Shown here: one piece after another, positions 26-19,614 of the stretch
Numbering within the stretch: the first letter of the stretch is position 1
How the letters are laid out: each line of letters starts with the position of its first letter
DNA from: a virus
DNA: 21,741 bases
Reading direction: 5' to 3' (one strand)
IMG/VR virus record: IMGVR_UViG_3300046665_000357
Span: 1-21,741 of that record
Notes under the pieces: generated by a model
Database searches by the model: none
What the model saw: only the letters and a program-made list of their open reading frames with translations
What the model was told of the DNA's origin: nothing
Made by a program: the position numbers and the translations under genes

Positions 26-41
26 TTTGCATTCAAGCAAA
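26..41. promoter_or_regulatory. Operator-like inverted repeat, exact copy
   Basis: TTTGCATTCAAGCAAA has perfect TTTGC/GCAAA half-sites around six bases. The identical 16-mer recurs at 9724-9739. Read leftward it contains TTGCTT (35-40), then 17 bases, then TTATGA (12-17), a plausible sigma70-type promoter firing out of the window. The repeat would therefore cover a -35 box. Confidence 0.7.
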
Positions 42-54
42 TGTCTGTGATGCG

Positions 55-96
55 AAAAGGGGCGCCCTGGCACGCACAACCAGATCAGGGCGCCCC
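55..96 (-). terminator. Rho-independent terminator after ssb
   Basis: Read leftward, a perfect 10-bp stem (GGGGCGCCCT paired with AGGGCGCCCC, arms at 87-96 and 59-68) with an 18-base loop is followed by TTTT (55-58). It lies about 35 bases after the ssb stop and ends the ssb transcript just before the next operator and promoter. Confidence 0.8.
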
Positions 97-102
97 TCGA
101 TA

Positions 103-121
103 TTCCCCGCTCAACGGGGAA
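103..121 (-). other. Stable hairpin between ssb stop and terminator
   Basis: TTCCCCG and CGGGGAA form a perfect 7-bp stem around a 5-base loop, immediately downstream of the ssb stop codon and upstream of the main terminator. It has no T run of its own. It may protect the 3' end of the ssb message or act as an auxiliary terminator stem. Confidence 0.5.
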
Positions 122-130
122 GCTCAGCTC

Positions 131-739
131 TTAGAAGGGGATGTCATCATCCATGTCGCTGCGACCGCCGCCGCGGCTGGTGCCGTTGCCGCCGCGATCA
201 TCGCGACCACCACGGTCATCGCGGTTGTCACGGCTCGACGAACCACGGTTGTTGCCACCGCGATCATCACGGTCATCGCGACCGCCACGATCGTCACGAT
301 CACGGCTCGACGAGCGGCTGCCACGGTCGTCACGATCATCGCGACCACCGCGGTCATCACGACCGTTGCCGCTGCGCTCGTTGTCGTTCTTCTCCCAGAT
401 CTTCTGCACGGTGCCGTTGAAGGCGCCGACCTTGATCTCGGTCGAGAACTTCTCGACGTCCTGCTGGTCCTTCCACTTGCGGGTCTCGATCGAGCCTTCG
501 AGGTAGACCTGATCGCCCTTGCGGAGATTGTCCTCGATGAACTTGAGGGTGCCCTTGCCCTTCTCGCCCCACACGTTGACGCGGTGCCACTCGGTCTTCT
601 CTTCCCACTCGCCCGTCTGCTTGCTCTTCCAGCGCTCGCTGGTAGCAACCGACAGGTTCGCGACGTCGGCATTGCCGACAGCGCGGATCTCGGGATCCTT
701 GCCGAGGCGGCCCATGATGATCGCTTTGTTAACTGACAT
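131..739 (-). CDS. ssb: Single-stranded DNA-binding protein (SSB)
   Basis: This 202-residue protein binds and protects single-stranded DNA during replication and recombination. Residues 1 to about 110 match a bacterial-type SSB OB fold: an N-terminal MSVNKAIIMGRLGKDPEIR, then WHRVNVWGEKG and an EGSIETRKWKD segment. The acidic tip DMDDDIPF matches the C-terminal peptide that recruits partner proteins. Between them, residues 123-193 are an unusual Arg/Asp/Gly/Ser tract with repeated RDDRGG units, instead of the usual Gly/Pro/Gln linker. The start follows AAAAGGAGACGAC. A promoter and operator lie directly upstream and a strong terminator follows, so ssb appears to be its own transcription unit. 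Confidence 0.95.
   Translation of the reverse strand: MSVNKAIIMGRLGKDPEIRAVGNADVANLSVATSERWKSKQTGEWEEKTEWHRVNVWGEKGKGTLKFIEDNLRKGDQVYLEGSIETRKWKDQQDVEKFSTEIKVGAFNGTVQKIWEKNDNERSGNGRDDRGGRDDRDDRGSRSSSRDRDDRGGRDDRDDRGGNNRGSSSRDNRDDRGGRDDRGGNGTSRGGGRSDMDDDIPF
168..375 (-). repeat. Short tandem-like repeats encoding the RDDRGG tract of SSB
   Basis: On the plus strand, variants of CGATCATCGCGACCACC and CGGTCATCGCGG recur many times in imperfect register. They encode RDDRGG, RDDRDDRG and SSSRD units of the SSB linker. The repetition would let the tract grow or shrink by slippage or recombination. Boundaries are approximate. Confidence 0.7.
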
Positions 740-760
740 GTCGTCTCCTTTTCTCCGTTT

Positions 761-789
761 GCATTACCATCCCGTTTGCATTCATGCAA
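761..789 (-). promoter_or_regulatory. Candidate ssb promoter
   Basis: Read leftward: TTGCAT (784-789), a 17-base spacer, then TAATGC (761-766). Transcription would start near 754, leaving a short leader with the AGGAG ribosome-binding site before the ssb ATG at 739. The -35 box lies inside the operator palindrome at 771-794. The -10 match is weak. Confidence 0.45.
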
Positions 790-794
790 GCGGG
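771..794. promoter_or_regulatory. Operator-like inverted repeat, longest palindrome, upstream of ssb
   Basis: The core TTTGCATTCATGCAAG (775-790) is flanked by CCCG and CGGG, giving a nearly perfect 24-bp palindrome with mismatches only at the central pair and at one position per arm. A further half-site TTTGCATT lies at 758-765. It sits between the helicase stop (798) and the ssb start (739). Confidence 0.7.
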
Positions 795-797
795 AAA

Positions 798-2366: not shown

Positions 2367-2571
2367 TCTCGTATTCACTCCAGGTGCAGTGGTGGCAGTT
2401 CCAGACGACACCTGAGGCGTCGATCTTGACGCTCAGGCATTTGAGTTTCTTGTGGGCGCCCTTCCGCTTGTGAGAGCAGTTCGGGCAGATCGCGTACGAC
2501 GTGCCCATCTTGATGGACTTCAGCTTGATGCCGGCCTTGCTGAGGACTTTCTCAACGTCGACGCTGGCCAT
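2236..2571 (-). CDS. Primase zinc-binding domain in a separate, overlapping frame
   Basis: The first 65 or so residues resemble the zinc-binding domain of T7 gp4-type primases: CPNC at residues 29-32 and CHHC at 59-62 bracket a short beta-rich segment (KLKCLSVKIDASGVVWNC). This domain reads the template trinucleotide that starts primer synthesis. After CHHCTWSEYEN the frame runs about 45 more residues of Arg/Gly-rich sequence that overlaps the N-terminus of the helicase in another frame and looks like unselected translation. The helicase frame is +1 relative to this one. Zinc domain plus helicase adds to about 585 residues, close to intact T7 gp4 (566). The ATG overlaps the upstream stop as TGATG. 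Confidence 0.75.
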   Translation of the reverse strand: MASVDVEKVLSKAGIKLKSIKMGTSYAICPNCSHKRKGAHKKLKCLSVKIDASGVVWNCHHCTWSEYENAKREARKGDRGPRPQRGNVGGYGDVQRASLARFAGQPRRSAG

Positions 2572-3377
2572 CAGATCGCCATCCCGGGGCGACCCGGCCT
2601 CGTGCGCTCCGGAGCACGCTCGGTTTCCCAGCGCTCCTGATTGACCCAGACGGCGCCGGCCGCGATGTACTTCTCGTTCTTCGCGTCCTCCTTGACCGCA
2701 GCATTCATGCGGTCGGCGTAGAAGCGGAGACCGGCCATCAGGTCGATGAACTCGACCTCATCGTCGTCGTGGACCTTGTCCAGCTTGGTCAGCGCAGCCT
2801 TTTTGCTGTCGCCTCGCTTCTTCGGGTAGAGATCCCAGAACTGCTTCCGGTAGTCCTCAGGCCACGGAGCGGTCTTCCGCTTCCGGTTAGCTTTGGGTTC
2901 TCTTGATGGGTTCAGTGTGGGTTCATCTGATAGGTTAGGCGGCACGTCTTGCCGCTGGTCACCGGCACCAGTTGCCTCACCCCCCGGCATCTCTTGCCGC
3001 TGGTCACCGGCATCCTGTGCCGCACCCTCCGGCATCTCTTGCCGCGGCACGTCTTGCCGCTGGTTGTCGTTGGCGGCCTTGCCCTTCGCGCGGGCCTTCG
3101 GCGGCACGACGTCGCCGGGGTCTTCCATGTTCAGGAAGATCAGGTCGGTGGTGTCGCGGCGCTTCTGGCGGCGGATCAGGCCCATCTCTTCCAGATCGGC
3201 CAGTGCGTATCGGACGGAGCGCGGGCACGCCTCGACCTCGTCGGCGATCCGCTGCTGCGATGGCCAGCATGCGCCATCAGCATCGTTGGCCCGGTTGGCG
3301 ATCGACATCAGCACTGCCTTGCGGAGCGTGCTGCCAGTCTTGATCTTTCTCGCCCAGGCTTGTGCGTCGAAGCTCAT
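2571..3377 (-). CDS. Winged-helix phage replication protein (O-like / HTH_36)
   Basis: A 268-residue protein from ATG 3377, chosen because AAGGGAAC lies about 9 bases upstream and the open frame beyond it crosses the promoter region. Residues about 10-90 form a winged helix of the kind found in phage and plasmid replication proteins (LRKAVLMSIANRAND, CWPSQQRIADEV, SVRYALADLEEMGLIRR). A repetitive Gln/Pro/Gly linker with QRQDVP and QRQEMP units follows. The C-terminal 90 residues contain PWPEDYRKQFWDLYPKKRG, a motif seen in O-like replication proteins. It probably binds the origin and recruits the adjacent primase-helicase, whose gene is coupled to it by TGATG. Family assignment is from motifs. 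Confidence 0.7.
   Translation of the reverse strand: MSFDAQAWARKIKTGSTLRKAVLMSIANRANDADGACWPSQQRIADEVEACPRSVRYALADLEEMGLIRRQKRRDTTDLIFLNMEDPGDVVPPKARAKGKAANDNQRQDVPRQEMPEGAAQDAGDQRQEMPGGEATGAGDQRQDVPPNLSDEPTLNPSREPKANRKRKTAPWPEDYRKQFWDLYPKKRGDSKKAALTKLDKVHDDDEVEFIDLMAGLRFYADRMNAAVKEDAKNEKYIAAGAVWVNQERWETERAPERTRPGRPGMAI
2940..3069 (-). repeat. Imperfect repeats inside the replication protein gene
   Basis: Units built on GGCATCTCTTGCCGCTGG and TCACCGGCA recur four to five times on the plus strand. They encode the linker repeats QRQDVP, RQEMPEG, QRQEMPGG and QRQDVPP separated by GAGD segments. In lambda-like phages the replication origin lies inside the O gene as short direct repeats, so these iterons could be the origin as well as linker-coding sequence. 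Confidence 0.55.
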
Positions 3378-3395
3378 CTCGTAGTTCCCTTGGAT

Positions 3396-3424
3396 TTGAC
3401 CCGCGTGGCGGGTTCGTGTATTTG
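3396..3424 (+). promoter_or_regulatory. Candidate promoter for the RuvC-like gene
   Basis: TTGACC (3396-3401), a 17-base spacer, then TATTTG (3419-3424). The spacer holds a perfect inverted repeat, ACCCGC-GTG-GCGGGT (3399-3413). The -10 overlaps the operator at 3421-3436, so repressor binding would block polymerase. The start point would be near 3431. Confidence 0.5.
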
Positions 3425-3447
3425 CAGGAAAGCAAATGCAAATGCAA
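3421..3447. promoter_or_regulatory. Operator-like inverted repeat plus two extra half-sites
   Basis: TTTGCAGGAAAGCAAA (3421-3436) is an exact TTTGC-N6-GCAAA copy. It runs into two further direct half-sites (ATGCAAATGCAAG), giving three GCAA units in a row. It lies between the divergent replication-protein and RuvC-like genes and could control both. Confidence 0.7.
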
Positions 3448-4098
3448 GCCACGAAATGTCGTGGCTGCACAACTCGAGTCACACCAAAAATGGGTTCCAT
3501 CCTCGTGGCCGGTCTCGACCCGGCCTTCGCCAACTTCGGCATCGCCAGAATGCGTCTCGACCTCGACAGCCTGGAGCTGTCCTTGGAGGCCGTGCGGACG
3601 CTCGTGACGCGCCCCATCGACAAGAAGGCCCGCAAGGTCGTCCGGAAGAACAGCGACGATCTGCGCCGCGCCAAGGAGCTGCACGACGGCTTCCACGAGG
3701 CTATCGCCGGGTGCGTTGTCGCCTTCGGTGAAATCCCTACCGGAACGCAGGGGCAGCGCGCTGCACTGGGCTTCGGCGTCGCGCTGGGCGTCCTGGCTTC
3801 ATGCCCGATCCCTATCATCCAGGTGATGCCGGCCGAGACCAAAGCCGCGATCGGGAACCCAAAGGCGGAGAAGCCCGAGATCATCGCCTGGGCCGGCGCC
3901 CGTTATCCACAGATCGACTGGCTCAGATATCACGAAGACGTGATCTACCGCGGCGAGAAGCGGCGGAGCGCCGGGGATTTGCACGAAGACAATGAGCATG
4001 TTGCGGACGCCACGGCGGTTTGCCACGCCGGAATCAAAACGGAGCAATTCAAGCAACTGATGGCGCTTTGGAAAGCTGCCGGGGTTCCGGTGTTTTAA
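3436..4098 (+). CDS. RuvC-like Holliday junction resolvase
   Basis: A RuvC/RNase H-fold nuclease expected to cut branched DNA made during phage recombination or replication. From the start at 3436 (220 residues) the acidic catalytic positions are D28 in VAGLDPAFANFG, E99 in VVAFGEIP, and the Asp/His set in EDNEHVADATAV around residues 184-193. The start is uncertain. ATG 3436 has AGGAAAG 5-6 bases upstream, but its first 18 codons overlap operator half-sites and a perfect hairpin (3448-3465). ATG 3490 (202 residues, MGSILVAGLDP) matches where RuvC proteins usually begin but has no good ribosome-binding site. It is one of three sizeable rightward genes here. Confidence 0.8.
   Translation: MQMQATKCRGCTTRVTPKMGSILVAGLDPAFANFGIARMRLDLDSLELSLEAVRTLVTRPIDKKARKVVRKNSDDLRRAKELHDGFHEAIAGCVVAFGEIPTGTQGQRAALGFGVALGVLASCPIPIIQVMPAETKAAIGNPKAEKPEIIAWAGARYPQIDWLRYHEDVIYRGEKRRSAGDLHEDNEHVADATAVCHAGIKTEQFKQLMALWKAAGVPVF
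3448..3465 (+). other. Perfect hairpin at the 5' end of the RuvC-like gene
   Basis: GCCACGA-AATG-TCGTGGC is a perfect 7-bp stem with a 4-base loop. It lies between the two possible start codons (3436 and 3490). If translation starts at 3490 the hairpin sits in the leader and could affect translation; if at 3436 it is coding. Confidence 0.45.
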
Positions 4099-4367
4099 CG
4101 GAACCTCAACCTTCATCTGTTGTTTCGCTTGCTTCGCGCTATTTTCGGGTCTTCGAACAGACCCGGAACAAAAAATCGTTTGCAATCAAGCGAAACCAGC
4201 CTTACTGAGTCGCGTTAGCATCCGTGCAAACGGAGGAACGCGGAACAATGTTGACAAGTTGCATTTTGAGTTTGCTTAGAGCCCGTGCTGCCGCTGATGT
4301 TAGTCAGCGCTGACTTTTCATTGTTACCAGTTTGCACTGCGCATTTATGCTATTGGAGGACCGCCAA
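4099..4367 (+). promoter_or_regulatory. Control region between the RuvC-like and repressor genes
   Basis: No convincing large gene lies here. It holds two degenerate operators, TTTGCAATCAAGCGAA (4179-4194) and TTAGCATCCGTGCAAA (4215-4230), and more half-sites near 4259 and 4331. A strong -35-like TTGACA is at 4251-4256, but its best -10 (GCTTAG, 4274-4279) is weak. A perfect palindrome AGTCAGCGCTGACT lies at 4302-4315. Two perfect stems occur: GGTTCCG/CGGAACC around the RuvC-like stop codon (4083-4105) and CGGGTCT/AGACCCG (4146-4165). Neither has a T run. The arrangement suggests a repressor controlling its own promoter. Confidence 0.5.
4248..4313 (+). CDS. Possible 21-codon upstream ORF ahead of the repressor
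   Basis: An ATG at 4248 is preceded by GGAGGA about 10 bases upstream and runs 21 codons (begins MLTSCILSLL) to TGA at 4311, inside the palindrome. It may be a leader peptide for the repressor gene, or chance. It overlaps the TTGACA promoter-like box, and both are unlikely to be real together. Confidence 0.2.
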   Translation: MLTSCILSLLRARAAADVSQR

Positions 4368-5087
4368 GTGTCTGAAGCGGTATTAGAAATGAAATCCCCG
4401 AAGAAGATTGTGATCGAGTGGATCGATCACATCCTCGACCGGAAGAAGTGGGATGGGACTCGGCTCGCGCGAGAAGCAAAGCTCGCACCGTCGACAATCC
4501 TACGCCTCATCAACGATCCGGAACATCCCTTTATCCCGACCCTCAAAACTCTGCAGAAGATTGCGGATGCCTCCGGGTATCCGATCCCACGCAAGGTGAC
4601 TGAGGCTCTCGGCGCTCCGAAGATGGAGCCGCTGGCAGAGGGTGAAGTCGAAGAGAATGGTGACGGCAGTGCCCGGCGGGACCGTAACGGCCGTATGCGG
4701 GCCACGACGGTCGAGCTGAAGCACGTCTCGTCTCTACCTGCCTCGCTGCAGGCTGCGTCATCAGCACGACGCGAGGCGTTCGTGCCGGCGCCGCCCCAGC
4801 TGGCTGACGACGAGTCGGCGTTCGCATTCTACATGCCGGACGATACCTTCGAGCCGTGGCTCAAGTCGGGCACGCTCATGTTTGCGACCAAGCGTCGTGA
4901 TCCTGTGCGGAACGACATGGTCGTCGTGACCGACAAGAACGACCGCACGCGGGTGCGACTGCTCTGCGGTATCGATGAAGGTGGTCTGCGGCTACTGAAG
5001 CAGATGGGCAGCCAGGAAGAAGAGCGGATCGAGTTCGACGACGTCAAGGATCTCGCGATACTCGTCGGCCTGTTCAAGGCCATATGA
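4368..5087 (+). CDS. CI/LexA-like phage repressor with degenerate S24 dyad
   Basis: A 239-residue two-domain regulator. The GTG start at 4368 is set by GGAGGA 7 bases upstream; the frame is open further upstream without a site. Residues about 12-80 hold a helix-turn-helix (WDGTRLAREAKLAPSTILRL). Residues about 150-235 resemble the S24 dimerisation/self-cleavage domain. In that domain, the usual D-S-M-x-P nucleophile motif reads DDTFEP (Thr160 instead of Ser), and the Lys position reads RVRLL (Arg197). If aligned correctly, RecA-triggered self-cleavage is lost. It is the best candidate to bind the TTTGC-N6-GCAAA repeats. It converges on the gene ending at 5101. Confidence 0.8.
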   Translation: MSEAVLEMKSPKKIVIEWIDHILDRKKWDGTRLAREAKLAPSTILRLINDPEHPFIPTLKTLQKIADASGYPIPRKVTEALGAPKMEPLAEGEVEENGDGSARRDRNGRMRATTVELKHVSSLPASLQAASSARREAFVPAPPQLADDESAFAFYMPDDTFEPWLKSGTLMFATKRRDPVRNDMVVVTDKNDRTRVRLLCGIDEGGLRLLKQMGSQEEERIEFDDVKDLAILVGLFKAI

Positions 5088-5089
5088 TA

Positions 5090-5112: not shown

Positions 5113-5493
5113 GTTCTCAACCTCGAACGTGTTCTCAACATCGCCGACCAGCTGCTCGATGCGCTGCACCGAAGCCGTCAACTCGTAGATGTCGAGATCT
5201 CGCCTCAGGTCCGTCAGTCGCTTGAGCCAGGCCTCGTCGGTGGCGACCTTCTGAACGTTCACGATGCTCTCCCATTTCTCCTGGTTGAGGGACAGCGTGA
5301 CCTTCTCGATCTCGAAATCGAGGAAGTCGATGAACTCCCTGAGCGGGATTGCGACCTTATCCATCGCCGGCCTGATGATCAGCATCTGCTGACAGATCTC
5401 CTCCAACATCGGATGGAGACGGCTTTGGAATCGAGCGTTGATCGGCTGCGGTCGCACAGCCGGCTCTTCAGTCCTAGTTTGCCTTTTTGCCAT
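5101..5493 (-). CDS. Hypothetical protein, probably helical
   Basis: A 130-residue protein I do not recognise. The sequence is rich in Leu, Ile, Glu and Arg with heptad-like spacing (FIDFLDFEIEKVTLSLNQEKW, LRRDLDIYELTASVQRIEQLV), suggesting a mostly alpha-helical, possibly coiled-coil, cytoplasmic protein. No Cys, signal peptide or membrane segment is seen. The ATG at 5493 follows AGGAAAGG by about 8 bases and lies 20 bases inside the upstream HTH gene, so the two are probably co-translated. Pairing with a small HTH gene is compatible with a two-gene regulatory or toxin-antitoxin-like unit, but no toxin family is visible. Confidence 0.7.
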   Translation of the reverse strand: MAKRQTRTEEPAVRPQPINARFQSRLHPMLEEICQQMLIIRPAMDKVAIPLREFIDFLDFEIEKVTLSLNQEKWESIVNVQKVATDEAWLKRLTDLRRDLDIYELTASVQRIEQLVGDVENTFEVENGGG

Positions 5494-5770
5494 TCGGCAC
5501 GCCTTTCCTCAGGGCCCTCATTCGAACATGCTGTTCGACAGCCTTGAAGTCTTCCTTGGTCGCTCGCCATGGCTTCAGCCCGCGGTCGATCGCAGACAGA
5601 GCCAGGGCGGTCGCCTTGGTGGCACCGCGCTCCTCGTACTTGGAAACAGCTTGAGGGGTGAGGCCGAGCCAGTCGCCCAGCTCGGCATGAGTCAAGTCCC
5701 TGGAGATCCTCCAGGCACGAACCTCTTCACCCGTCAGGAATTTCGCCGACGCATTTCGGCTGCCTGGCAT
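5474..5770 (-). CDS. Small XRE-type helix-turn-helix regulator
   Basis: A 98-residue DNA-binding protein. The segment LTGEEVRAWRISRDLTHAEL, then GDWLGLTPQAVSKYEERGA, is a typical XRE/Cro-type helix-turn-helix in the first two thirds; the C-terminus is basic. ATG 5770 is preferred because GAGAAG lies about 6 bases upstream; a GTG at 5788 would add six residues. It heads a two-gene unit with the overlapping downstream gene. A perfect inverted repeat CCGGTTA-GCG-TAACCGG lies about 50 bases upstream and is a candidate site for self-regulation, as is usual for this class. Confidence 0.8.
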   Translation of the reverse strand: MPGSRNASAKFLTGEEVRAWRISRDLTHAELGDWLGLTPQAVSKYEERGATKATALALSAIDRGLKPWRATKEDFKAVEQHVRMRALRKGVPNGKKAN

Positions 5771-5795
5771 AACGTTCTTCTCTTGCACAAAAACA

Positions 5796-5835
5796 ACTGC
5801 ATTTGCGCAGTGACTGTGCCGGTTAGCGTAACCGG
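5796..5835. promoter_or_regulatory. Palindromes upstream of the XRE gene
   Basis: CCGGTTA-GCG-TAACCGG (5819-5835) is a perfect inverted repeat unlike the phage-wide motif, probably the XRE protein's own operator or a terminator stem for the upstream gene. Next to it, ACTGC-ATTTGC-GCAGT (5796-5811) has the same spacing as the TTTGC-N6-GCAAA repeat with changed outer bases. A lone half-site TTTGCAT is at 5899-5905. Confidence 0.5.
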
Positions 5836-7710: not shown

Positions 7711-8069
7711 GCGATCAACATCAGTTCACGGGGTTTGGTCAGAGCAAGCTCCCGTTCGGCAGCCCGTAGCTGCCGGCAGAGGATTTCGATTTGCTTGGTC
7801 TTGCGGGCTTTGAAGTCCCGGATGGCGCCTGCCTCAGACTCCGAGTACTTCTTCTTGAATGCGGTGAGCAGCTGAAACTCACCGGTACACAGCCATGCGC
7901 CCTTGGGCGTCCGGCGCTCGATCTCCCACCACCACATCTCAAGACGAGGGTCGGTGACGCCGTACTCATCGCGATCGGCGTCGATGATGTAGGAGTAGCT
8001 CTTGGCGTCGCACCGCCAGAGGACGTCTTCCCCCTCTGGCGGCTTGCCTCGCGGATAGTGCAGCTTCAC
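7707..8069 (-). CDS. Hypothetical protein
   Basis: 120 residues from a GTG that overlaps the helicase stop as GTGA, so it is coupled to the helicase. The N-terminal half has a Trp-rich segment (LEMWWWEIERRTPKGAW) and the C-terminal half is a charged helix (KARKTKQIEILCRQLRAAER) that could form a coiled coil. No family recognised. It may assist the helicase, but only gene order suggests that. Confidence 0.65.
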   Translation of the reverse strand: MKLHYPRGKPPEGEDVLWRCDAKSYSYIIDADRDEYGVTDPRLEMWWWEIERRTPKGAWLCTGEFQLLTAFKKKYSESEAGAIRDFKARKTKQIEILCRQLRAAERELALTKPRELMLIA

Positions 8070-9679
8070 GCAACGCCGGGCAGTGCGAGCTGCCCCTTCT
8101 TGTTGTCGTTGGCTGCAACGGCCTTCTGGTTGTCGTTAGCCGGCGGCATCTTCACCTTCGGCAACGGCGGATAGAGATCGATCAACTCCTCCATGGCGCG
8201 GGTGGCCGCCACGTATTGCAGATTGAACTCCTGCTCCTTCTCCCAGGGCATGGTGGCGTACTTCGACGGGCAGGTGTTCAGCCGGTCGAGCCAGTAGACG
8301 CGCTTCCACTCGCGGCCCTTCGACCGGTGGATGGTGCAGAGGGTCAGGATACCCTTCACGTCATCTGCGAAGATGTTGTCGATGTAGGCGGTGACGGATG
8401 AGATCGAGTCCTGCTTCTCCTCACGGCACGCATCCATGATGACCTTCAGGGTCTCGAACTTGTCCTCGGCCTCCTGCACCTTCGACATCTTCTTCTTCGG
8501 CAGCCAGCGCTCCTTCTCCTTCTCCAGCCAGTCCTCCAGCTTCTCCTCCAGCTCTGGGATGGTGCTGATCGACTTCCAGCGGGTAGCCAGCTTCTTGAGG
8601 CCGTTGCCGATGTCCCGGCCTTCGATGCGGCAAGGGATCTTGTCGCGGATCATCGCGAATGCGGCAGTGACCAGCGGGCGGGTGTTGCGGCAAAGGATTG
8701 CCGCATCGCCGTTGAGCCGGCTACGATCCTGGATCAGGTTCTCGAACGTCTCGGTGCTGATCTTGCCGTCTGGAGCGGTTTCGTGCGCTTCGATGTGGCT
8801 GACCCACGTCTTGGCGAACTTCACCACGTTCTTCGGGCAACGGTACGTGACCGTCAGTGGCATCTCCTTGGCGCCGAACTCCGCCTTGATGATGTCTAGG
8901 CTATCGTTATCGGCCCCCGTGAAGCCGAAGATGGCCTGGTGGGGGTCGCCGACAGCGAACACGCGGCCGGTGTGGGGCTTCATCAGCGCTCGCACCAGCA
9001 GCCGGCGCACCGTGTTGGTGTCCTGCGCCTCGTCGATCCAGACGTTGTCGAACTGCCAGAACCTGATCTTGTAGAGTAGGGGCAGGTAGATCATGTCGTT
9101 GAAGTCGATGACCTCCGGGTTCTTGTTCGACTCCTTCAGCGTCTCGATCGCCAGGTCGATGATGTCCGACGCCTTCTTCTGCAGCGGCTCTTCATCGAAG
9201 ATGTCGTAGTGCTCGGCGATGTCCTCCCAGATCGAGTGGTCCTCGATATGGCCCTGTCCCTCGATGCCGAGGCCGCTCTGCTTGGCGAGGCCGACTAGCT
9301 GGCAGACGACAGCGACATGCGGTACGAGCGACGGCTCGATCTTGCTGTCCTCCACCCACTGGGCGGTGATGCGGCCGACCTTCTCGTCGTCGACGCGAAC
9401 CTTCGGGAACGTCTTGCGGTAGTTTCGCAGAGCGATGGCGTGACAGGTCGAGGACTCTGCCTTCTTCCAGTCGATGCCGAGCTTCTCCAGCTTGCCCTTC
9501 ATTTCCTTGGCGATCTTGGCGCCAAAGGACAGGATGATGCTGCTGCCGAGCATCTTCTCGACGGTATGGACTATGGTCGTGGACTTGCCGGCGCCGGCCA
9601 CCGCGATCACGAGCAGGGAGCTGGAGCCGTTCCAGGCCTCGTGCTGGACCGCCGCTTGCTGCGGGGAGGGGACGTACAT
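8066..9679 (-). CDS. UvrD/PcrA-like superfamily 1 DNA helicase
   Basis: A 537-residue ATP-dependent 3'-5' type helicase for phage DNA repair, recombination or replication. The SF1 motifs appear in order: PSPQQAAV near residue 4 (Q motif), Walker A AVAGAGKSTT at 26-35, motif II VWIDEAQDT at 213-221, motif III AVGDPHQAIFGFTGA at 242-256, motif IV TYRCPKN at 278-284, and C-terminal TIHRSKGREW and YVAATRAMEE (motifs V and VI). The protein is shorter than cellular UvrD (about 720 residues). ATG 9679 follows AAAGGTGATCCA. An operator lies 45 bases upstream, so it appears to start a transcript that includes the small genes downstream. Confidence 0.93.
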   Translation of the reverse strand: MYVPSPQQAAVQHEAWNGSSSLLVIAVAGAGKSTTIVHTVEKMLGSSIILSFGAKIAKEMKGKLEKLGIDWKKAESSTCHAIALRNYRKTFPKVRVDDEKVGRITAQWVEDSKIEPSLVPHVAVVCQLVGLAKQSGLGIEGQGHIEDHSIWEDIAEHYDIFDEEPLQKKASDIIDLAIETLKESNKNPEVIDFNDMIYLPLLYKIRFWQFDNVWIDEAQDTNTVRRLLVRALMKPHTGRVFAVGDPHQAIFGFTGADNDSLDIIKAEFGAKEMPLTVTYRCPKNVVKFAKTWVSHIEAHETAPDGKISTETFENLIQDRSRLNGDAAILCRNTRPLVTAAFAMIRDKIPCRIEGRDIGNGLKKLATRWKSISTIPELEEKLEDWLEKEKERWLPKKKMSKVQEAEDKFETLKVIMDACREEKQDSISSVTAYIDNIFADDVKGILTLCTIHRSKGREWKRVYWLDRLNTCPSKYATMPWEKEQEFNLQYVAATRAMEELIDLYPPLPKVKMPPANDNQKAVAANDNKKGQLALPGVA

Positions 9680-9723: not shown

Positions 9724-9752
9724 TTTGCATTCAAGCAAACAGAAAATGCAAA
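9724..9752. promoter_or_regulatory. Operator-like inverted repeat plus half-site upstream of the helicase
   Basis: TTTGCATTCAAGCAAA (9724-9739) is identical to the copy at 26-41. A further half-site ATGCAAA follows at 9746-9752. Read leftward, TTGCAT and TTGCTT can serve as -35 boxes, but no good -10 is seen 17 bases on. It lies in the 73-base gap between two same-strand genes, marking a new transcription start for the helicase. Confidence 0.65.
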
Positions 9753-10944: not shown

Positions 10945-13179
10945 TCAGGCTGCTTCGTCGAGGACGTCAAGGTCTTGATCGACCTCCTCCTCGACGATCT
11001 GGTTGTTGTCGTTCAGCCCCAGCTCAACCCGTGCCGCAGCCGCCCGCTGCTGCAGGAGCTGCTGCTCTGCATGCAGGAGGTCGCAGTAGGTCTTGAGCTG
11101 AAGTTCGGTGGTGCGGGCGTCCGTACGGTTGCCATAGGAGTAGTACGGGTTGGGCTCGATGATGAGCTTCAACAGCGAGTACTTGGAGCACAGCTCGCGA
11201 TAGCGGCGCTCCATCGCATGGATCGGACACTGGACTTCCGGCGTTTCAACGTGAACACCGAGCTGCGCCAAGGCGGAATGCGCCTTGTCGGTATCGGTCT
11301 CGACGTTAGACTGGGCCTTCAGCGTGTTGCCGAGAGTGGTCAGCTCGGCCTTGAACGACAGAAGGTCTTCCGGAGCGTTCGCGAACGTCGCCGATTGCAT
11401 GCCAAAGATGCCACGCAAGGCGGTGTCCAGATCGTTGAAGCTTTTCTTGTGCAGACCGGTGAAGGTGCTGACGTCGATCTTCGCTTGCAGGTCGGTGATC
11501 AGGTCGTCGCCGAACAGCGTCCAGTTCTCGCCAAGGGCGGCGTGATCCTCGTTCTGCACCACGATCATCGTTCCGGCCTCGACCAGGCCCAGGTCGTAGC
11601 CGGCCGAGATGGCCTGCTTGAGCGAGCTGGACGAGACACCGCTGCGATCCTGAGAGACCCGGAAGAAGTCCGAGCCGCCACGCCGCCGGCTGCTGAACCG
11701 GTTGTCCTGGCGGATGATGTAGAGCCCGCCCTCGGCGAGATCGACATCCTCCTGACTCATCGCGATCCCGCCACCCTCCAGAACGAGAAGGGTTTTGCGA
11801 CGGCGCACGGTCTTGCCCCGCTTGACGCGAGCCGAGGCCGGCACCTTGAAGGTATCGAGCTCAATGATCTCGGGATTGCCGAGATCGGCCAGAACCTGCT
11901 CGCGGAAGGCGCGCTTGCAGCGGACCCACAGCACCTTCTCGCCGATCAGCCCCGCCAGCTGGAAGCGGGAGAACGAGTAGCTGGGGTTGTGCTCGATGAC
12001 GATCTTGGCATCGCGAACCGTGCGGCAACGCACGGCGCTATCCTCGAATTTGTCGAACTGCGACCAGCCATCGTCCAGCATCATGGTCTTGGCGTTGCGC
12101 TTCGGCACGTTGGTGCCGAGGTACAGGCCAGCCCACTTCACGACGTTGCGCAGGCTGTCGACGCGGCTGACGCCCAGGTTCTCGGTCGCATCCTCGAACA
12201 GCTCGACGGCTTCGAGCAGGTCTTGCGCCTGGTCGACGATGCCCTGGAGCTGGGTGATGAAGTTGCTCTCGTACTCCTGGACGAGGCGGGTCAGAGTCGC
12301 CTTGGTGTTATCGTCGTACGCCAACTCTTCGCGGGATAGCGTGACCTTCAGCGAGCCGATCGGCGCGTCGAACAGCACGTTGTCATTATAGTCGAGGAAG
12401 CCCGACGTTTTGATCTGGCGCAGATCGAACGGATACATCACGCAGCCCATGCGGACGCGCGGGCCAGAGAACGGGATTGTGTTCGGCTTGTAGCGGGTCC
12501 AGTTGTCGCCCTGGCTGAGGACGACCGGGTCCTTCCAGTTCAGCGACGGCGTGACCTTCGGCCGTGGCTCGAACGACCAGAGGATCTGGCGGGCACGGTC
12601 ATGGAACTCGGCGATGTCCTCGCGGCGCACCGGGAAGGAAACCTCCAGGCCCGTATCCGCATCGGACGGCGCCTCGATCAGCAGGCGCATGGTCGGCGCA
12701 CCGCTCTGCGAGAGCGACAAGACGTAGGTCCGCATCATGCCGCCGTGGTACGACGTCACGGTGTAGGAGCCCGAGCCATTGTCCGAGATCAGGTAGGCGT
12801 ACGGACTCTTCGAACCCAAGCCCCAGCCACCAACCTGGTTGTTGCTATCCCGCTTCGTCGAAGCGTAGAGGCGGGCGTAGACGTTCTTCATGTCTTCCGG
12901 CGACATGCCGGGACCGAAGTCACGGAACGTGATCGTCGGATTGAGCGGGGTCGGCAGCGTGATCTGCGGGATCTTGTCCTCGGGGATGTTGTCCCCGTAC
13001 TTGATCCGGGAGCCGTCCCACATGTTCGTGGTCAGCTCGCGCATCGGGTAGCCGATCTTGTCCTTCGCAAGACCGGAGATCTGGGCGTAGAACGCCACGG
13101 CGTTCGCTTCGAACGAAATGGCGACTTCATCCTGCACTCCCGAGGCGACGTCGACGTGCTCTTGCAATCCGAGTTTCAT
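10945..13179 (-). CDS. rIIA-like GHKL ATPase
   Basis: A 744-residue protein. The N-terminal third has a GHKL/Bergerat ATP-binding fold: N box RELTTNMWDGS with Glu48 and Asn52, G1 box DFGPGMSPED at 87-96, and G2 box GGWGLGSKSPYAY at 117-129. This arrangement matches rIIA-like proteins of large phages. The C-terminal part is long and mixed, ending in an acidic tail. Start ATG 13179 follows AAAGGACACGGAACA. It shares an operon with the rIIB-like gene downstream and the metallopeptidase upstream. The family is linked to lysis control and resistance to exclusion by resident prophages; mechanism unknown. Confidence 0.85.
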   Translation of the reverse strand: MKLGLQEHVDVASGVQDEVAISFEANAVAFYAQISGLAKDKIGYPMRELTTNMWDGSRIKYGDNIPEDKIPQITLPTPLNPTITFRDFGPGMSPEDMKNVYARLYASTKRDSNNQVGGWGLGSKSPYAYLISDNGSGSYTVTSYHGGMMRTYVLSLSQSGAPTMRLLIEAPSDADTGLEVSFPVRREDIAEFHDRARQILWSFEPRPKVTPSLNWKDPVVLSQGDNWTRYKPNTIPFSGPRVRMGCVMYPFDLRQIKTSGFLDYNDNVLFDAPIGSLKVTLSREELAYDDNTKATLTRLVQEYESNFITQLQGIVDQAQDLLEAVELFEDATENLGVSRVDSLRNVVKWAGLYLGTNVPKRNAKTMMLDDGWSQFDKFEDSAVRCRTVRDAKIVIEHNPSYSFSRFQLAGLIGEKVLWVRCKRAFREQVLADLGNPEIIELDTFKVPASARVKRGKTVRRRKTLLVLEGGGIAMSQEDVDLAEGGLYIIRQDNRFSSRRRGGSDFFRVSQDRSGVSSSSLKQAISAGYDLGLVEAGTMIVVQNEDHAALGENWTLFGDDLITDLQAKIDVSTFTGLHKKSFNDLDTALRGIFGMQSATFANAPEDLLSFKAELTTLGNTLKAQSNVETDTDKAHSALAQLGVHVETPEVQCPIHAMERRYRELCSKYSLLKLIIEPNPYYSYGNRTDARTTELQLKTYCDLLHAEQQLLQQRAAAARVELGLNDNNQIVEEEVDQDLDVLDEAA

Positions 13180-13213: not shown

Positions 13214-14254
13214 TCAGGCGACGGCGATTTCGTCGTCGCCCAGGAGATCGAGCAGCGTCCGCTCCGGTTCGTATGCCGGCGGCATGCGGTTGGTGAACTT
13301 GATGGCGTCATCCAGCTCATCGACGCCGACGTTCATGTCGTTGAGGTACTCGGCGACCTGGCGCGGATATTTCCACACCAGTTCCTCCAGATCGCGCAGC
13401 CGCAGCCGACGCAGGGTGCGGAGCTTGCTGATCCCCAGGCCGGAGGATGAAGAGCTGCTGCCCCACGACGAGCTGCTGTAGCTTCGACGTTGCGAGCGCT
13501 GCGGCACCTCTGAGACATTGCCCTTCGGATCGCGCTCGATGACGAACTTCGAGGCGTCGATCTTGACCATGAGGTCACGCAGCTCGAAGAGATGCTTGAC
13601 GCACTGGGTCTCGTCGTCGTGATGCTCGTTCTCGTATCCGACCGAGATGTTCGAGCACTCCGGGACGATGCCCATGTAGATCTTGGTGTCGGTCAGGACG
13701 CCGGTCGGATCGGGCTTGAACCCCGGCAGCTGCTCGCAGACCGATTTGGCGAAGGCATCCGACGCTGTCCTGCCGCGCTGGTGGGTGATCACCGAGTCGA
13801 AACCGCGGCGATCGAACGCGACCGCAGCCTTGATGCCGTCCAGGAACTCCGGCGTCTCGTTGGCGATGCCTCCGGAGCCCTTGCACCCCACCTCCTCGCC
13901 GAAGTGGAAGACGTAGAGGCCTGGCACCTTCGCCTCGATCATCTTGATCATGATGAAGTTGCCGGCCGCGTCGTCAGCGCCGAGACAGTTCGACTTGGAC
14001 TTCTTCGGCAGGTGGATCTTGGTGCCGGTCATCTCGATCTTCTGGAAGCCCTCGTCCCGGTGGACGCTGTCCGTGTGGGAGGACCAGAGGATCGTCGGCT
14101 TCTCTTCCCCGACGATGAGGAAGCGGTTGCCGAACTTGTCCGTGTTGACGCCGAGCGGGTTGAGGAAGCGCTCGATGTAGGCAGCCTCGGTCTTCGAGCC
14201 ATAGGGACGGCGATGGCTAAGCATCGCCTTGATCATCTCAAGGTCGTTGGACAT
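13214..14254 (-). CDS. M20/M28-fold zinc metallopeptidase with extra C-terminal domain
   Basis: 346 residues. A complete set of co-catalytic zinc residues can be read: His60 and Asp62 in SSHTDSVH, the bridging Asp in LGADDAAGN (94-95), Glu120-Glu121 in FHFGEEVGC, Asp148 in AFDRRGFDS, and His211/212 in YENEHHDDE. This is the pattern of M20 peptidases such as PepT and M28/M42 aminopeptidases. The catalytic part ends near residue 235. A Ser-rich linker (258-271) then joins a 70-residue basic, helical domain of unknown kind. No signal peptide, so it acts in the host cytoplasm. ATG 14254 follows AGGAACTGAA. Substrate unknown. Confidence 0.82.
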   Translation of the reverse strand: MSNDLEMIKAMLSHRRPYGSKTEAAYIERFLNPLGVNTDKFGNRFLIVGEEKPTILWSSHTDSVHRDEGFQKIEMTGTKIHLPKKSKSNCLGADDAAGNFIMIKMIEAKVPGLYVFHFGEEVGCKGSGGIANETPEFLDGIKAAVAFDRRGFDSVITHQRGRTASDAFAKSVCEQLPGFKPDPTGVLTDTKIYMGIVPECSNISVGYENEHHDDETQCVKHLFELRDLMVKIDASKFVIERDPKGNVSEVPQRSQRRSYSSSSWGSSSSSSGLGISKLRTLRRLRLRDLEELVWKYPRQVAEYLNDMNVGVDELDDAIKFTNRMPPAYEPERTLLDLLGDDEIAVA

Positions 14255-14269: not shown

Positions 14270-15928
14270 TTAGCGATTGTTGCTTTGGGCGTAGCGACGG
14301 GGGCGATCAGTGCGTCCCATCAGCTGGTCTTCGACCATGTCGTTCATCCAGCGCTGCATCTGCTCGTGCTGACGCGGATCGAGCTGTGCAGTCTGGATGT
14401 CGTCGACGATCACTTGTCGGGCGGTCAGGCCGGAGACGCCGAGATTGGCGACATGAGCAGCGTCAGCACCTGGAGCAGCAGGATCGACGCTGAAGAACAC
14501 CCGATGATCATGGTCGTTCGGGTAGTCGCGGTACTGCATGGTGCGGAGCCAGGGGTTGCGGCCTTCGCGGTCTGCTGCCATCAGCTCCTTGCGCAGCATG
14601 TCCCTGATGGATGGGCCGTTGGCGTGGTCACCTTCGAGACGGAGGCGCATGATCTGATCCTGCTCGATCATGCGGATCTGCACGGGCGAAAGTGGGTTTC
14701 CCTGTTCGTCAAACCGCCATTCGACACTCTTGTGGATTCGGCGCTCACCCTTCTGAACCATCTCGTCTTTGGGATGGTTCTTGCCAGTGAATGTGCAGTG
14801 CTCGCCGTGAGTCTCGAAGTGCTCCTTGCACCAGTAGTAGCCGGCACCCATCAGCACCCGGTACTCGTTTGACCAGATCTGCTTGGTGGCGCGACAGGTG
14901 AAGGCGTAGCCGTCGATGGCGTCCTTGCACCACTCCTGCTCGATGCCGCGGACGAGCCGGAACTCCTTCGCAGGCCTGCCAGCACGCATCTTTGGGCACC
15001 ACTGATACAGATCGGAGTGACCCACGCTGCTGCCGCAGATGATGTACTTGTGACCGACCGTATCCTTGAGCGGTCCATCGTACGTCTCGAAGTAATCACC
15101 CTTCAGGATGACACAGTCGATGTTGTCGAAGTACGGCATCACGTAGAACCCAGGCTTCTCCGGATGTTCGATCTTCAGAATCTTGGCGCCTGACGGAAAC
15201 TTCCCGTCGTTGTAGGCGTCCGCGTAGCCCTCGGCTTTCATCGCCGCCTGCATGCGCTGGATGTCGCCGTAGCAGCGCCCGAAGAGCTTCTTCTCGGGCC
15301 AGCACAGGACGCGGGACTGGATGCGGCCCTCGGCGTTCTTCGTGTAGGCGACGGCGAGGTCGCCGGCCCCGTAGGGATCGGTCGGCCAGTAGGGGTCCAT
15401 CGCACTGAAGTTGTGCTTGCCGTCCATGCAGGACGAGGGCCCGGTCTTGTAGATCTCGGAGATCTCCTCCGGCTTGAAGACGTAATGAATCTCACCAGCC
15501 GGATCGACCGCGGCGATCAGGCGACGACGATGGTCGTCATCCACCTCCGGGTAGAACTTGGTGAGGTATCGGCCGGGCGTCGTGATCGTCACGCGATCGA
15601 TCGTCCCCAGCTCCTCGCTCTCGGTGTAGGCGATCTTGGAAGGGTCGCGTGCCGAGAGATGGGCGAAGTGATCCGTAATGGGCTGGAGGTCCCACGCCTC
15701 CGGCAGCGCCTTGAGTTGGCCGGATGCGAGACGCTCCTGCTGGCGACCGCGCCAGTCCGGAGCCTGTGCCATGCGCCGCGGCTGCACCTTGTAGCCGAGC
15801 TGGTCGGTCAGCTGCTTGGCAGCCTTTGCTGCGTCGCTGCCCTTCTCATAGGGATCGTGATCGGGAAGGGGCACGTCACGCATGCCACCGTTCCCGTCCG
15901 GCTCTAACCGGACGAGGTAGAACGACAT
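14270..15928 (-). CDS. Large hypothetical phage protein
   Basis: 552 residues from ATG 15928, set by GGAGGA five bases upstream; the frame extends further but crosses the operator. I do not recognise the family. Residues about 175-240 hold an ordered block, GPSSCMDGKHNFSA then PYGAGDLAVAYTKNAEGRI then SRVLCWPEKKLFGRCYGD. Later come CGSSVGHSDLYQWCP and a Trp/Tyr/Cys-rich segment (YRVLMGAGYYWCKEHFETHG) with His/Cys that may bind metal. The C-terminus is helical and charged. It has no membrane segment. The initiation context ACTGAAATGTC is nearly the same as that of the peptidase gene 16 bases downstream, and the two are probably co-transcribed. Confidence 0.8.
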   Translation of the reverse strand: MSFYLVRLEPDGNGGMRDVPLPDHDPYEKGSDAAKAAKQLTDQLGYKVQPRRMAQAPDWRGRQQERLASGQLKALPEAWDLQPITDHFAHLSARDPSKIAYTESEELGTIDRVTITTPGRYLTKFYPEVDDDHRRRLIAAVDPAGEIHYVFKPEEISEIYKTGPSSCMDGKHNFSAMDPYWPTDPYGAGDLAVAYTKNAEGRIQSRVLCWPEKKLFGRCYGDIQRMQAAMKAEGYADAYNDGKFPSGAKILKIEHPEKPGFYVMPYFDNIDCVILKGDYFETYDGPLKDTVGHKYIICGSSVGHSDLYQWCPKMRAGRPAKEFRLVRGIEQEWCKDAIDGYAFTCRATKQIWSNEYRVLMGAGYYWCKEHFETHGEHCTFTGKNHPKDEMVQKGERRIHKSVEWRFDEQGNPLSPVQIRMIEQDQIMRLRLEGDHANGPSIRDMLRKELMAADREGRNPWLRTMQYRDYPNDHDHRVFFSVDPAAPGADAAHVANLGVSGLTARQVIVDDIQTAQLDPRQHEQMQRWMNDMVEDQLMGRTDRPRRYAQSNNR

Positions 15929-15950: not shown

Positions 15951-15966
15951 GTTGCATTCAAACAAA
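15951..15966. promoter_or_regulatory. Operator-like inverted repeat upstream of the 552-residue gene
   Basis: GTTGCATTCAAACAAA matches the TTTGCATTCAAGCAAA form at 14 of 16 positions. A further half-site TTTGCTC is at 15941-15947, between this repeat and the ribosome-binding site of the gene starting at 15928. Confidence 0.6.
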
Positions 15967-16051: not shown

Positions 16052-16077
16052 TTTGCATTCATGCGCATGAAAGCGCA
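16052..16077. promoter_or_regulatory. Overlapping pair of operator-like inverted repeats
   Basis: TTTGCATTCATGCGCA (16052-16067) is a close variant of the common repeat. It overlaps TGCGC-ATGAAA-GCGCA (16062-16077), a perfect inverted repeat with the same 6-base centre. Together they could bind two repressor dimers about 10 bp apart, on the same helical face. Confidence 0.55.
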
Positions 16078-16087
16078 AGCTAAATTT

Positions 16088-16168: not shown

Positions 16169-16182
16169 TTCCTGGCTCCGTC

Positions 16183-16639: not shown

Positions 16640-16808
16640 GATCGATCCCTTCGAACAGGCGGGTCTGCTCTCGGATGCGAGCGACCTCGATCTCGGCGTC
16701 CACGCGCTCGTCCTCAAGGATCGCCAGTGCGGCTTCCTTGCGACGGCGCATCAGTTCGGCCCATGATCCCCGATATGGAGTGATCGGCCCCTTTCTTGAG
16801 AGTCCCAT
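16623..16808 (-). CDS. Small helical hypothetical protein
   Basis: 61 residues from ATG 16808, with AAGGA about 9 bases upstream and 1 base after the preceding stop. After a short basic start (MGLSRKGPITPYRG) nearly the whole chain reads as one charged helix (AELMRRRKEAALAILEDERV), suggesting a coiled coil or an adaptor. Its end overlaps the next gene by 17 bases. Confidence 0.55.
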   Translation of the reverse strand: MGLSRKGPITPYRGSWAELMRRRKEAALAILEDERVDAEIEVARIREQTRLFEGIDHVRGF

Positions 16809-16809
16809 G

Positions 16810-17469: not shown

Positions 17470-17554
17470 CGAACTCAAAGTTGCATTCAGGACAGATGAA
17501 GTGGGTGCGTAGCCATCCAAGGCAGCGTTCGAGGTTCTCATTGTCATGGCTCAT
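17390..17554 (-). CDS. Small zinc-ribbon protein
   Basis: 54 residues from an ATG that overlaps the preceding stop as ATGA. Two cysteine pairs, CPEC (21-24) and CPDC (41-44), separated by an acidic turn (FDEEGDCSGD), form a textbook zinc ribbon; two other Cys flank it (Cys11 and Cys49). Such folds bind nucleic acid or partner proteins. The last codons overlap the Myb-like gene in another frame. The stop context is GAGAGG-TC-CAC-TGA-C, with an SD-like run just before the stop, which recalls the prfB +1 frameshift site, although CAC would re-pair poorly. Confidence 0.6.
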   Translation of the reverse strand: MSHDNENLERCLGWLRTHFICPECNFEFDEEGDCSGDVISCPDCREKFVCREVH

Positions 17555-17769
17555 GCGCGGGCGAACCGCTTGTTGATGTCGACGAAACGCCGCTCTTGTC
17601 GGCGTTGCCGTCCTCGATCGGATTTCGAGAACGGCTCGTAGTGGCGCTTCCAGGTGTGACCTTCGAGAAGGAAGCGGAATGCAGCGCCGATCGAGCGCTG
17701 CGCTGGTGTCCCCTTGTCACAGGGATGACGACTCCTACGCTGCCGCCAGATCTCCCGCATGCTGCCCAT
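17551..17769 (-). CDS. Small Arg-rich hypothetical protein
   Basis: 72 residues from ATG 17769 (GGAGC about 8 bases upstream; ATG 17760 is also possible). Very basic, with runs such as WRQRRSRHP and DRGRQRRQERRF, suggesting nucleic-acid contact. No domain recognised. It overlaps the phosphoribosyltransferase-like gene by 35 bases and the zinc-ribbon gene by 4 bases, inside the same operon. Confidence 0.55.
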   Translation of the reverse strand: MGSMREIWRQRRSRHPCDKGTPAQRSIGAAFRFLLEGHTWKRHYEPFSKSDRGRQRRQERRFVDINKRFARA

Positions 17770-18142
17770 CGTTCCAGCTCCGTTCGTGCCTGTAGTGTTG
17801 TGGTTTGCGCGCCTCGTACCAGAAGGCCACGCGCGGAGGCTCTTCGAAGACGGCGATGACAGTCGGAGCCCGACCCATGCGCTTCGTGTACCAGCTCGCG
17901 GATTTGCGCAGCGTCCGGCCGCTCTCGCGGGCGGTGTCGATCAGCAGCAGATTGAACTTGTCCGGGCACTGGGCGCCGAATGGGATGAACGGGATGCCGA
18001 GGATGTGCGAGGCGTAGACGCCAGCGATAGCGCCCGATCTGCCTGGGCCGGTGACGGCGCCGACGTGACTCAGGTCTCTGCCGAAGAGGATCTCTCTGAT
18101 CCGATGAGCGAACTCGTTCTCGGTGATGATGCGGATGGTCAT
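17735..18142 (-). CDS. Phosphoribosyltransferase-like protein
   Basis: 135 residues from ATG 18142, which overlaps the preceding stop as ATGA. A type I PRTase fold can be read: the pyrophosphate-loop-like TGPGRSGAIAG (31-41) and the PRPP-binding segment LLLIDTARESGRTL (65-78), which corresponds to the family DDxxxTGxT pattern. The acidic pair is reduced to one Asp (69), with Glu73 nearby, and the usual Thr before Gly is Ser74. The chain is shorter than most cellular enzymes (170-230) and lacks a recognisable base-binding hood. It may salvage or modify nucleotides, or have become non-catalytic. Confidence 0.7.
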   Translation of the reverse strand: MTIRIITENEFAHRIREILFGRDLSHVGAVTGPGRSGAIAGVYASHILGIPFIPFGAQCPDKFNLLLIDTARESGRTLRKSASWYTKRMGRAPTVIAVFEEPPRVAFWYEARKPQHYRHERSWNDGQHAGDLAAA

Positions 18143-18411
18143 GCCACGGCCTTTCGTTTCACGGTGTCGATGATGCAGTCGTGTTCGATGGGGTTGTGAT
18201 CGGCGAGGAACTGGAGCGCCTTCTGGTGATAGGCGCTGCCGGCACTGGCTTCCTTGGCGACAAGGCGCCACGCCTCGATGTCAGTGAGGAAGCGGTCGCT
18301 CTCGTCGAGCTTCTGCAGCTGCCAGGGACCGTTCTCGCTGCCGAAGCATTCGAAGATGCCCCAGCCCTGGTCGAAGGCGATTGCGTTGTCGAAGGTGGCT
18401 CTGTCCGGCAT
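18139..18411 (-). CDS. Hypothetical protein
   Basis: 90 residues. Starts MPDRATFDNAIAFDQGWGIF and reads as a small alpha/beta protein with two helices in the second half (TDIEAWRLVAKEA, YHQKALQFLADH). No catalytic motif. It overlaps the phosphoribosyltransferase-like gene by 4 bases (ATGA), implying coupled translation and perhaps related function. Not recognised. Confidence 0.65.
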   Translation of the reverse strand: MPDRATFDNAIAFDQGWGIFECFGSENGPWQLQKLDESDRFLTDIEAWRLVAKEASAGSAYHQKALQFLADHNPIEHDCIIDTVKRKAVA

Positions 18412-18439
18412 GTGATCCTCGCGGGAATGGGAGAGGGGT

Positions 18440-18463
18440 GCCCGTCCCCCGAAGGAGACGGGC
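18440..18463 (-). other. Hairpin with UUCG tetraloop between genes
   Basis: Read leftward, GCCCGTCTCC-TTCG-GGGGACGGGC is a 10-bp stem (one G-T pair) closed by C(UUCG)G, among the most stable RNA tetraloops. It lies 9 bases after the stop of the acidic protein gene and before the gene at 18411. No T run follows. It may stop 3' exonucleases or partly terminate transcription between the two genes. Confidence 0.6.
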
Positions 18464-18472
18464 GAGGCTGGA

Positions 18473-19468
18473 TCAGCGGAGGTTCTTGTTCAGCGCCCAG
18501 TACGGATTGGTCCCGTCCATCGGCTTGACGAACAGGGTGGCGTAGGCGTGGTCGCGGGTCTTGACGACCTCGACATCGCGGACGCCGGCATACTGCTTGT
18601 GGAAGCGGACGACCTGACCGGGAGCGATCAGGCGACCGTTGACCCACTTCGCATCCGGATGAGGCGGAGCAGCCGGAGCCTGCTCGACGACAGGCGCTTC
18701 GGCCTGAAAGTCGGCATCGCCCTCGTCGTGCTCCTCCTCCTCGGTGTACTCGTCGTCCGTCAGCTCCTCGTTGAGACCGACGATGTCAGCAGCTGCGACG
18801 ACCGGCGTCTCGACGACCTCCGGAACGCGCGGCGGGATCGTGATCGGGAAGATGCCGAACAGGTCACCGTGGTCGTAGACCCGCTTGGCCGAGGCCTCGC
18901 TGTCGTAGACGGTCTCGTCGGTCGTCAGGGTCCGCTCGTCGTCGATGAGCAGGCGGATGTACTTCACCTGCGGCTCGGTCGAGAGGTTCTCCAGCGACCA
19001 ATCGCCGCTGATGTCGTCGCCTTCCAGGTCGAACTGGAGGACGATGTGCTCACCGCCGTCCTGCCCGGCGATCACCACCGGGTGGCTGCCATGCGGCAGC
19101 ACGGCGATGATCGAAGCGTCATCCAGCTGCTGCTGGTAGTCGTTGTCCCGGAAGATCTCGAACGGCTTGTTGAAGTCGACCTTGCCGACCGGATACTTCG
19201 GCGGCTCGGGCGGCGTATCGGCAGCGGGCAGTGCCTCGGCGACGACCGGCTGCTCTTCGCCAGTGACGGCGGCGAGCACGGTCTCGGTCGAGACGTCGGC
19301 GGCGAATGCCTCGGTGTCAGCCGGGTAGGCGAGGGTGGAAGCCTGGTCGGCAGCCATGTGGTCGCGGCTGACGTAGCCGGACATGCCGATCACGTTCGAC
19401 TCCGGGGTGAGCGTATGCTGCTCGTCGGAGATCGTGGCGATCGGTGCTTGTCCCATGGTCGGGTCCAT
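18473..19468 (-). CDS. Large acidic hypothetical protein
   Basis: 331 residues from ATG 19468, set by AGGAG 9 bases upstream. Strongly acidic, with two low-complexity linkers: an Ala/Pro/Glu segment around residues 60-100, and DDEYTEEEEHDEGDADFQ followed by AAPPHPD near residue 260. Between them is a beta-rich folded region (VDFNKPFEIFRDNDYQQQ, then ASIIAVLPHGSHPVVIAG). The C-terminus (WVNGRLIAPGQVVRFHKQ) looks like a small barrel. No family recognised. It is first in the leftward unit behind the double operator at 19576-19614, so it is probably highly expressed early. Confidence 0.7.
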   Translation of the reverse strand: MDPTMGQAPIATISDEQHTLTPESNVIGMSGYVSRDHMAADQASTLAYPADTEAFAADVSTETVLAAVTGEEQPVVAEALPAADTPPEPPKYPVGKVDFNKPFEIFRDNDYQQQLDDASIIAVLPHGSHPVVIAGQDGGEHIVLQFDLEGDDISGDWSLENLSTEPQVKYIRLLIDDERTLTTDETVYDSEASAKRVYDHGDLFGIFPITIPPRVPEVVETPVVAAADIVGLNEELTDDEYTEEEEHDEGDADFQAEAPVVEQAPAAPPHPDAKWVNGRLIAPGQVVRFHKQYAGVRDVEVVKTRDHAYATLFVKPMDGTNPYWALNKNLR

Positions 19469-19575
19469 TTGCAGTTCTCCTTTGGATTGCGGCCGACTGG
19501 TTGAGGTCACCCCGTCAGTGACGGCGGCCCGCGCTTGATTTGACGAGGTGTTTCGAACAGGTCCGTAGACCATCG

Positions 19576-19614
19576 TTTGCATTATGCGCAAGAGCAAATT
19601 TGCATTTGAGCAAA
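19576..19614. promoter_or_regulatory. Two operator-like inverted repeats between divergent genes
   Basis: TTTGCATTTGAGCAAA (19599-19614) is an exact TTTGC-N6-GCAAA copy. TTTGCATTATGCGCAA (19576-19591) is a looser one, with its second half shifted by a base. Their centres are 23 bp apart, about two helical turns, as in cooperative operator pairs. They separate the acidic-protein gene (leftward) from the GIY-YIG-like gene (rightward). Confidence 0.65.

Follow-up and report, generated by a model that had tools for sequence, protein, structure and literature searches.

A dispersed, polar operator-like element and its candidate CI-like repressor in large temperate Bradyrhizobium phages

Introduction

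Cluster A actinophages such as L5 and TipsytheTRex carry more than 20 repressor sites throughout the genome, located at promoters and in short intergenic gaps, and the orientation of these sites tracks transcription. The stoperator is a 13-bp asymmetric site, recognised by a monomeric repressor with two DNA-binding domains (PMC9283540, PMC6550527). In phage P1, the single repressor C1 acts on 22 dispersed operators, represses its own gene and has a known antirepressor; its operator is a 17-bp asymmetric sequence, ATTGCTCTAATAAATTT (PMC8546580). In SPbeta, the intergenic repeat SPBRE was initially found by sequence and was later recognised as the site of the master repressor MrpR (PMC10516654).

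The window analysed here (the whole stretch of 21.7 kb) is a piece of a larger phage from a group of ~120-kb Bradyrhizobium myoviruses. Among named phages, its closest relative is Bradyrhizobium phage BDU-MI-1, a 121-kb myovirus with a tail sheath and an integrase. The group comprises large temperate Bradyrhizobium phages and one distant relative, the Methylobacterium indicum plasmid pVL1_2 (NZ_AP024147), which is a complete phage-plasmid with capsid, tail sheath, terminase and ParA. The regulation of these phages of soybean symbionts appears to be undescribed so far, and the literature searched contains no phage paper with the exact site sequences reported below.

With P1, these phages share dispersed operators under what would be one self-repressing repressor. 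Unlike in P1, the site is not the 17-bp asymmetric C1 operator, and no antirepressor was identified. As with SPBRE, we are dealing with a repeated intergenic element that was first found by sequence; unlike MrpR, which has a tyrosine-recombinase fold, the candidate repressor combines a helix-turn-helix (HTH) with a LexA-like domain. The resemblance to stoperators lies in the many sites dispersed over promoters and short gaps and in an orientation that follows transcription. Unlike in Cluster A, the site is a 16-bp inverted repeat with an asymmetric core, its probable repressor has a LexA/CI fold, and a block to elongation is a prediction.

Results and discussion

The preliminary description of the window reported four exact copies of TTTGC-N6-GCAAA, at 26-41, 3421-3436, 9724-9739 and 19599-19614, and all four are present. 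Its estimate of about 0.02 expected copies agrees with Markov-1 resampling (~0.1 per 120 kb, scaled to the window). With up to two mismatches, the window holds 16 matches where 5.7 are expected, a number reached in none of 100 shuffles. A matrix built from seven other genomes finds 11 sites with a score of at least 8 (0.41 expected; maximum of 3 in 200 resamplings), the weakest two of which, at 5782 (10.0) and within coding sequence at 3978 (9.6), are near background. The proposed close variants at 775-790, 15951-15966 and 16052-16067 score 29.2, 21.0 and 18.9, respectively. Among the four degenerate sites, 4179-4194 (14.8) and 4215-4230 (19.5) are retained, and the other two are not scored by the matrix: 19576-19591 is at most a TTTGC half-site, and 5796-5811 is a different palindrome, ACTGC-N6-GCAGT. 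The statement that all sites are intergenic thus holds for the nine supported window sites, and 5796 and 19576 fall away as sites.

The matrix scan of relatives that had been proposed as a check extends this picture. Full-length relatives in IMG/VR (records of at least 100 kb) contain 9-12 exact copies each, with 5 in one genome (G006), where ~0.1 are expected and a reversed-pattern control gives 0-1. In a count made without a prior motif, TTTGC with a gap of 6 is the top gapped 5-bp palindrome in seven of nine full genomes. The matrix detects 22-38 sites per full genome. With seven genomes as training set and three sequences kept aside for the scan, it recovers 45 strong sites, 43 of them intergenic, and none in resampled sequence. 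The plasmid pVL1_2 has 20 matrix sites against 0.05 expected. Because orthologous sites of related genomes lack full independence, we attach no literal meaning to p-values. We also rejected a host regulator site: outside the prophage contig, the 8.8-Mb B. hipponense genome contains only 12 exact matches, and the phage core is missing from all of them. The phage sites are genuine and far exceed the chance level.

Placement of the sites depends on the gene caller. A longest-ORF caller placed the majority of sites within ORFs; it populated gaps with spurious ORFs, clashed with the BDU-MI-1 annotation and was dropped in favour of a codon-usage caller. With the latter, just 2 of 93 exact sites are inside genes, though 73-89% of the DNA is coding. 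Over all genomes, the matrix sites number 268. Of these, 247 are intergenic, and at 189 of the 247 a start codon follows within 100 bp. Tight same-strand junctions, that is, positions inside operons, hold 74 of 208 sites. BDU-MI-1 has no sites in its structural-gene blocks (52-75 and 77-98 kb). A general tie to terminators was rejected, as a strong hairpin precedes just 8 of 207 sites.

Many sites stand 10 bp ahead of a start codon and beside GGAG, an arrangement that would also suit an element acting in RNA, as a hairpin ahead of the ribosome-binding site like start-associated sequences. The variation of the arms speaks against this: 172 changes are one-sided and 5 compensatory, and the element is therefore read as DNA rather than as an RNA hairpin. 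Furthermore, some sites contain a -35 element and would hence be untranscribed. We regard an RNA function as hardly credible. The exact site at 26-41 (minus strand; score 28.8) illustrates the arrangement, lying 10 bp before a minus-strand ATG (16-14) and behind a GC-rich hairpin with a T tail, in the same position in relatives. This hairpin (43-96, minus strand) follows ssb, and its GTGCGTGCC-like loop is kept in relatives; it may be a terminator whose loop is conserved.

The site had been described as inverted rather than asymmetric. Its arms are indeed inverted, but neither the core, TTGAAT, nor a flanking TG is symmetric, and both are oriented along transcription. At sites with a gene on one side, the core points along transcription in 120 cases and against it in 10; at divergent sites the numbers are 11 and 13. 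This bias is present in every genome. The TG is found exactly 10 bp upstream at 88 of 156 sites, where the mean elsewhere is 9, and its mirror image, CA, is not comparably enriched (17 vs 11). The TG may represent a weak third half-site (TGC). At most sites it does not serve as an ordinary extended -10, as the next hexamers are not TATAAT-like. Nor do we read TG-N9-TTGC as a sigma-54 (-24/-12) element, since G hardly ever follows the TG. With an asymmetric core and a TG that run along transcription, the likeness to stoperators is closer than the preliminary description held.

Polarity also bears on a possible role of the sites as dispersed, centromere-like partition sites. Dispersed inverted repeats would suit such a role, and pVL1_2 is a plasmid with ParA. 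However, the sites follow gene direction, an integrase is encoded by 9 of 10 genomes, and a search for ParB_N gave no match above the cut-off, with one sub-threshold match in 10 genomes. A partition function is thus extremely improbable.

Two registers relate the sites to promoters. In the first, the site itself provides the -35 (TTGCWT), and an extended -10 (TGnTA) lies 17 bp further on. At 24 of 208 sites, TGnTA occurs at a distance of precisely 21 bp from the start of the site, and in the reversed control this position is not one of the top-ranking ones. The window has three examples. Upstream of ssb (131-739, minus strand), the site at 775-790 (minus strand) contains a putative -35, TTGCAT (789-784), followed by the extended -10 TGGTAAT (769-763); orthologous sites exist, and the promoter overlap suggested earlier for ssb agrees with this arrangement. 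Before the UvrD-like helicase gene (8066-9679, minus strand), the exact site at 9724-9739 (minus strand; 30.9) has a -35 inside and the extended -10 TGCTAC at 9718-9713. Before the plus-strand gene at 19635-20087, the exact site at 19599-19614 (plus strand; 22.8) holds TTGCAT at 19600-19605, and the extended -10, TG-A-TATAGA, is at 19620-19628. In the second register, seen at one orthologous gene in several genomes, TTGACA-17-TTATAC stops just before the site, which lies over the start.

The remaining window sites comprise an exact copy at 3421-3436 (25.7), unoriented and kept in relatives, between the divergent genes for a replication-initiator-like (2571-3377, minus strand) and a RuvC-like protein (3490-4098, plus strand), and two minus-strand sites, 15951-15966 and 16052-16067, ahead of the minus-strand gene 14270-15928. 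A scan of the window with strict -35/-10 consensus sequences gave nothing above chance. A recognisable sigma-70 promoter is missing at 172 of 208 sites, so simple promoter blocking does not explain all of them.

The polarity, the TG at exactly -10 and the proximity to start codons would equally be expected of activator or promoter elements, through which another phage regulator turns on middle or late operons. Yet the sites take up several different registers with respect to sigma-70 elements, often on the -35 or the start, where binding would block, and a pair of sites flanks the predicted promoter of the repressor gene. A search for the sigma-region-4 family found none above the cut-off, and the rarity of G after the TG does not fit a sigma-54 promoter. 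We consider activation unlikely and favour repression.

The best candidate binder, very probably, is the CI-like protein encoded at 4368-5087 (plus strand). It is found in 11 of 11 records of at least 100 kb and in none of the records with a single (chance) site. Two contigs of 60-75 kb have 5-6 sites and lack it; these may be fragments. The recognition helix, LAPST-LR, is nearly invariant among homologues, and the pVL1_2 protein (32% identical) retains PST-LR; its gene is surrounded by a similar gene set (RusA, DUF1376, helicase, ssb, dnaQ). Two sites upstream of the gene, O1 (4179-4194, plus strand) and O2 (4215-4230, plus strand), are conserved in relatives including G009. O1 would cover the -35 (TTGCAA, 4180-4185), with a weak -10 at 4203-4208, and O2 the predicted transcription start. 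The absence of a second HTH gene from G009 likewise points to the CI-like protein. The earlier proposal of one regulator acting on many dispersed sites is strongly backed by co-occurrence, recognition helix, auto-operators, promoter overlap and pVL1_2, with the CI-like protein as the candidate that these sequence comparisons favour.

The second HTH (XRE) protein (104 aa; 5474-5788, minus strand) is encoded by 9 of 10 genomes and has a weak match in pVL1_2, which would allow it to be the binder. G009, however, lacks the gene and retains 33 sites along with the neighbouring genes, and the palindrome upstream of the gene differs from the operator. We give this protein a very small chance of being the binder; a role as partner regulator is possible. 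The palindrome (ACTGCGCAAATGCAGT, 5796-5811) is followed by a T run and is conserved in close relatives; it could be the second HTH gene's own operator or a terminator.

Operators of phage 186 are few and clustered rather than genome-wide. The 186 CI protein (PDB 2fjr) shares the architecture of an HTH and a LexA-like C-domain with our CI-like protein and is its best Foldseek match, at 13% identity. The AlphaFold model of the CI-like protein (mean pLDDT 73, pTM 0.47) shows an XRE HTH (residues 8-82) and a LexA/CI-fold C-domain (~111-239). With VIA-align, LexA/lambda CI give the best matches; Z is 11.4 for 3k2z (rmsd 3.0, 114 aligned), 10.9 for 8gmu and 9.3 for 2fjr. The structure matches listed are LexA/CI folds, with no L5-type fold among them; this lends no support to a place in the L5 Rep family but does not by itself exclude one. 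A PDB sequence search and Rfam returned nothing useful.

Catalytic residues were matched by eye on the alignment. The S24 motif GDSMEP...VKR reads D[DN][STA]xxx...VRL in the homologues: the serine position is S, T or A, and the lysine position is an invariant arginine (R197), leaving no Ser/Lys dyad. The Ala-Gly or Cys-Gly cleavage pair is likewise absent, with VSSLP or VSAFP in its place. Replacement of the catalytic lysine and loss of the cleavage pair indicate that the protein is probably not RecA-cleavable, and hence probably not self-cleaved. Judged by these aligned residues, the predicted repressor is outside the self-cleaving LexA/CI class.

We infer that the sites are bound by this repressor and used for repression. 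In a lysogen, some 20-35 sites throughout the ~120-kb genome would be occupied by repressor dimers, and one protein could silence most lytic genes. At some sites, the dimer would cover the -35 or the start of promoters read by host sigma factor and block initiation; the repressor gene would be autorepressed through its two weaker sites. At tight junctions within operons that have no recognisable promoter, the sites would probably act as stoperator-like, one-directional stops for elongating RNA polymerase. As the C-domain has neither the catalytic lysine nor the cleavage pair, induction would probably proceed via an antirepressor or repressor loss rather than RecA-stimulated self-cleavage. This mechanism as a whole, including non-cleavability, is in our judgement likely. 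More tentative, and in our estimate somewhat short of an even chance, is the joint proposal that the sites are tripartite, with a TGC as the third half-site, 12 bp upstream of the palindrome's left arm, and that a non-cleavable dimeric CI/LexA-fold repressor on such polar sites halts polymerase one way, a stoperator mechanism that would have evolved separately from that of the actinophages.

The proposed mechanism would give large temperate phages of soybean-symbiont bacteria a master-repressor regulon, which predicts immunity groups, the genes silenced in lysogens and an induction independent of RecA cleavage. If polar sites do block elongation, silencing in one direction across a whole genome would have arisen with an ordinary repressor of the CI type.

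Several genes of the window have features of their own. The rIIA-like gene adjoins a gene of a phage peptidase family (10945-13179 and 13214-14254, minus strand). The replication-initiator-like gene contains a tandem repeat of ~45 bp at 2940-3045. In the SSB protein, the C-terminal tail carries a low-complexity DDRGGRDD repeat (131-420, minus strand), followed by the usual DDDIPF end.
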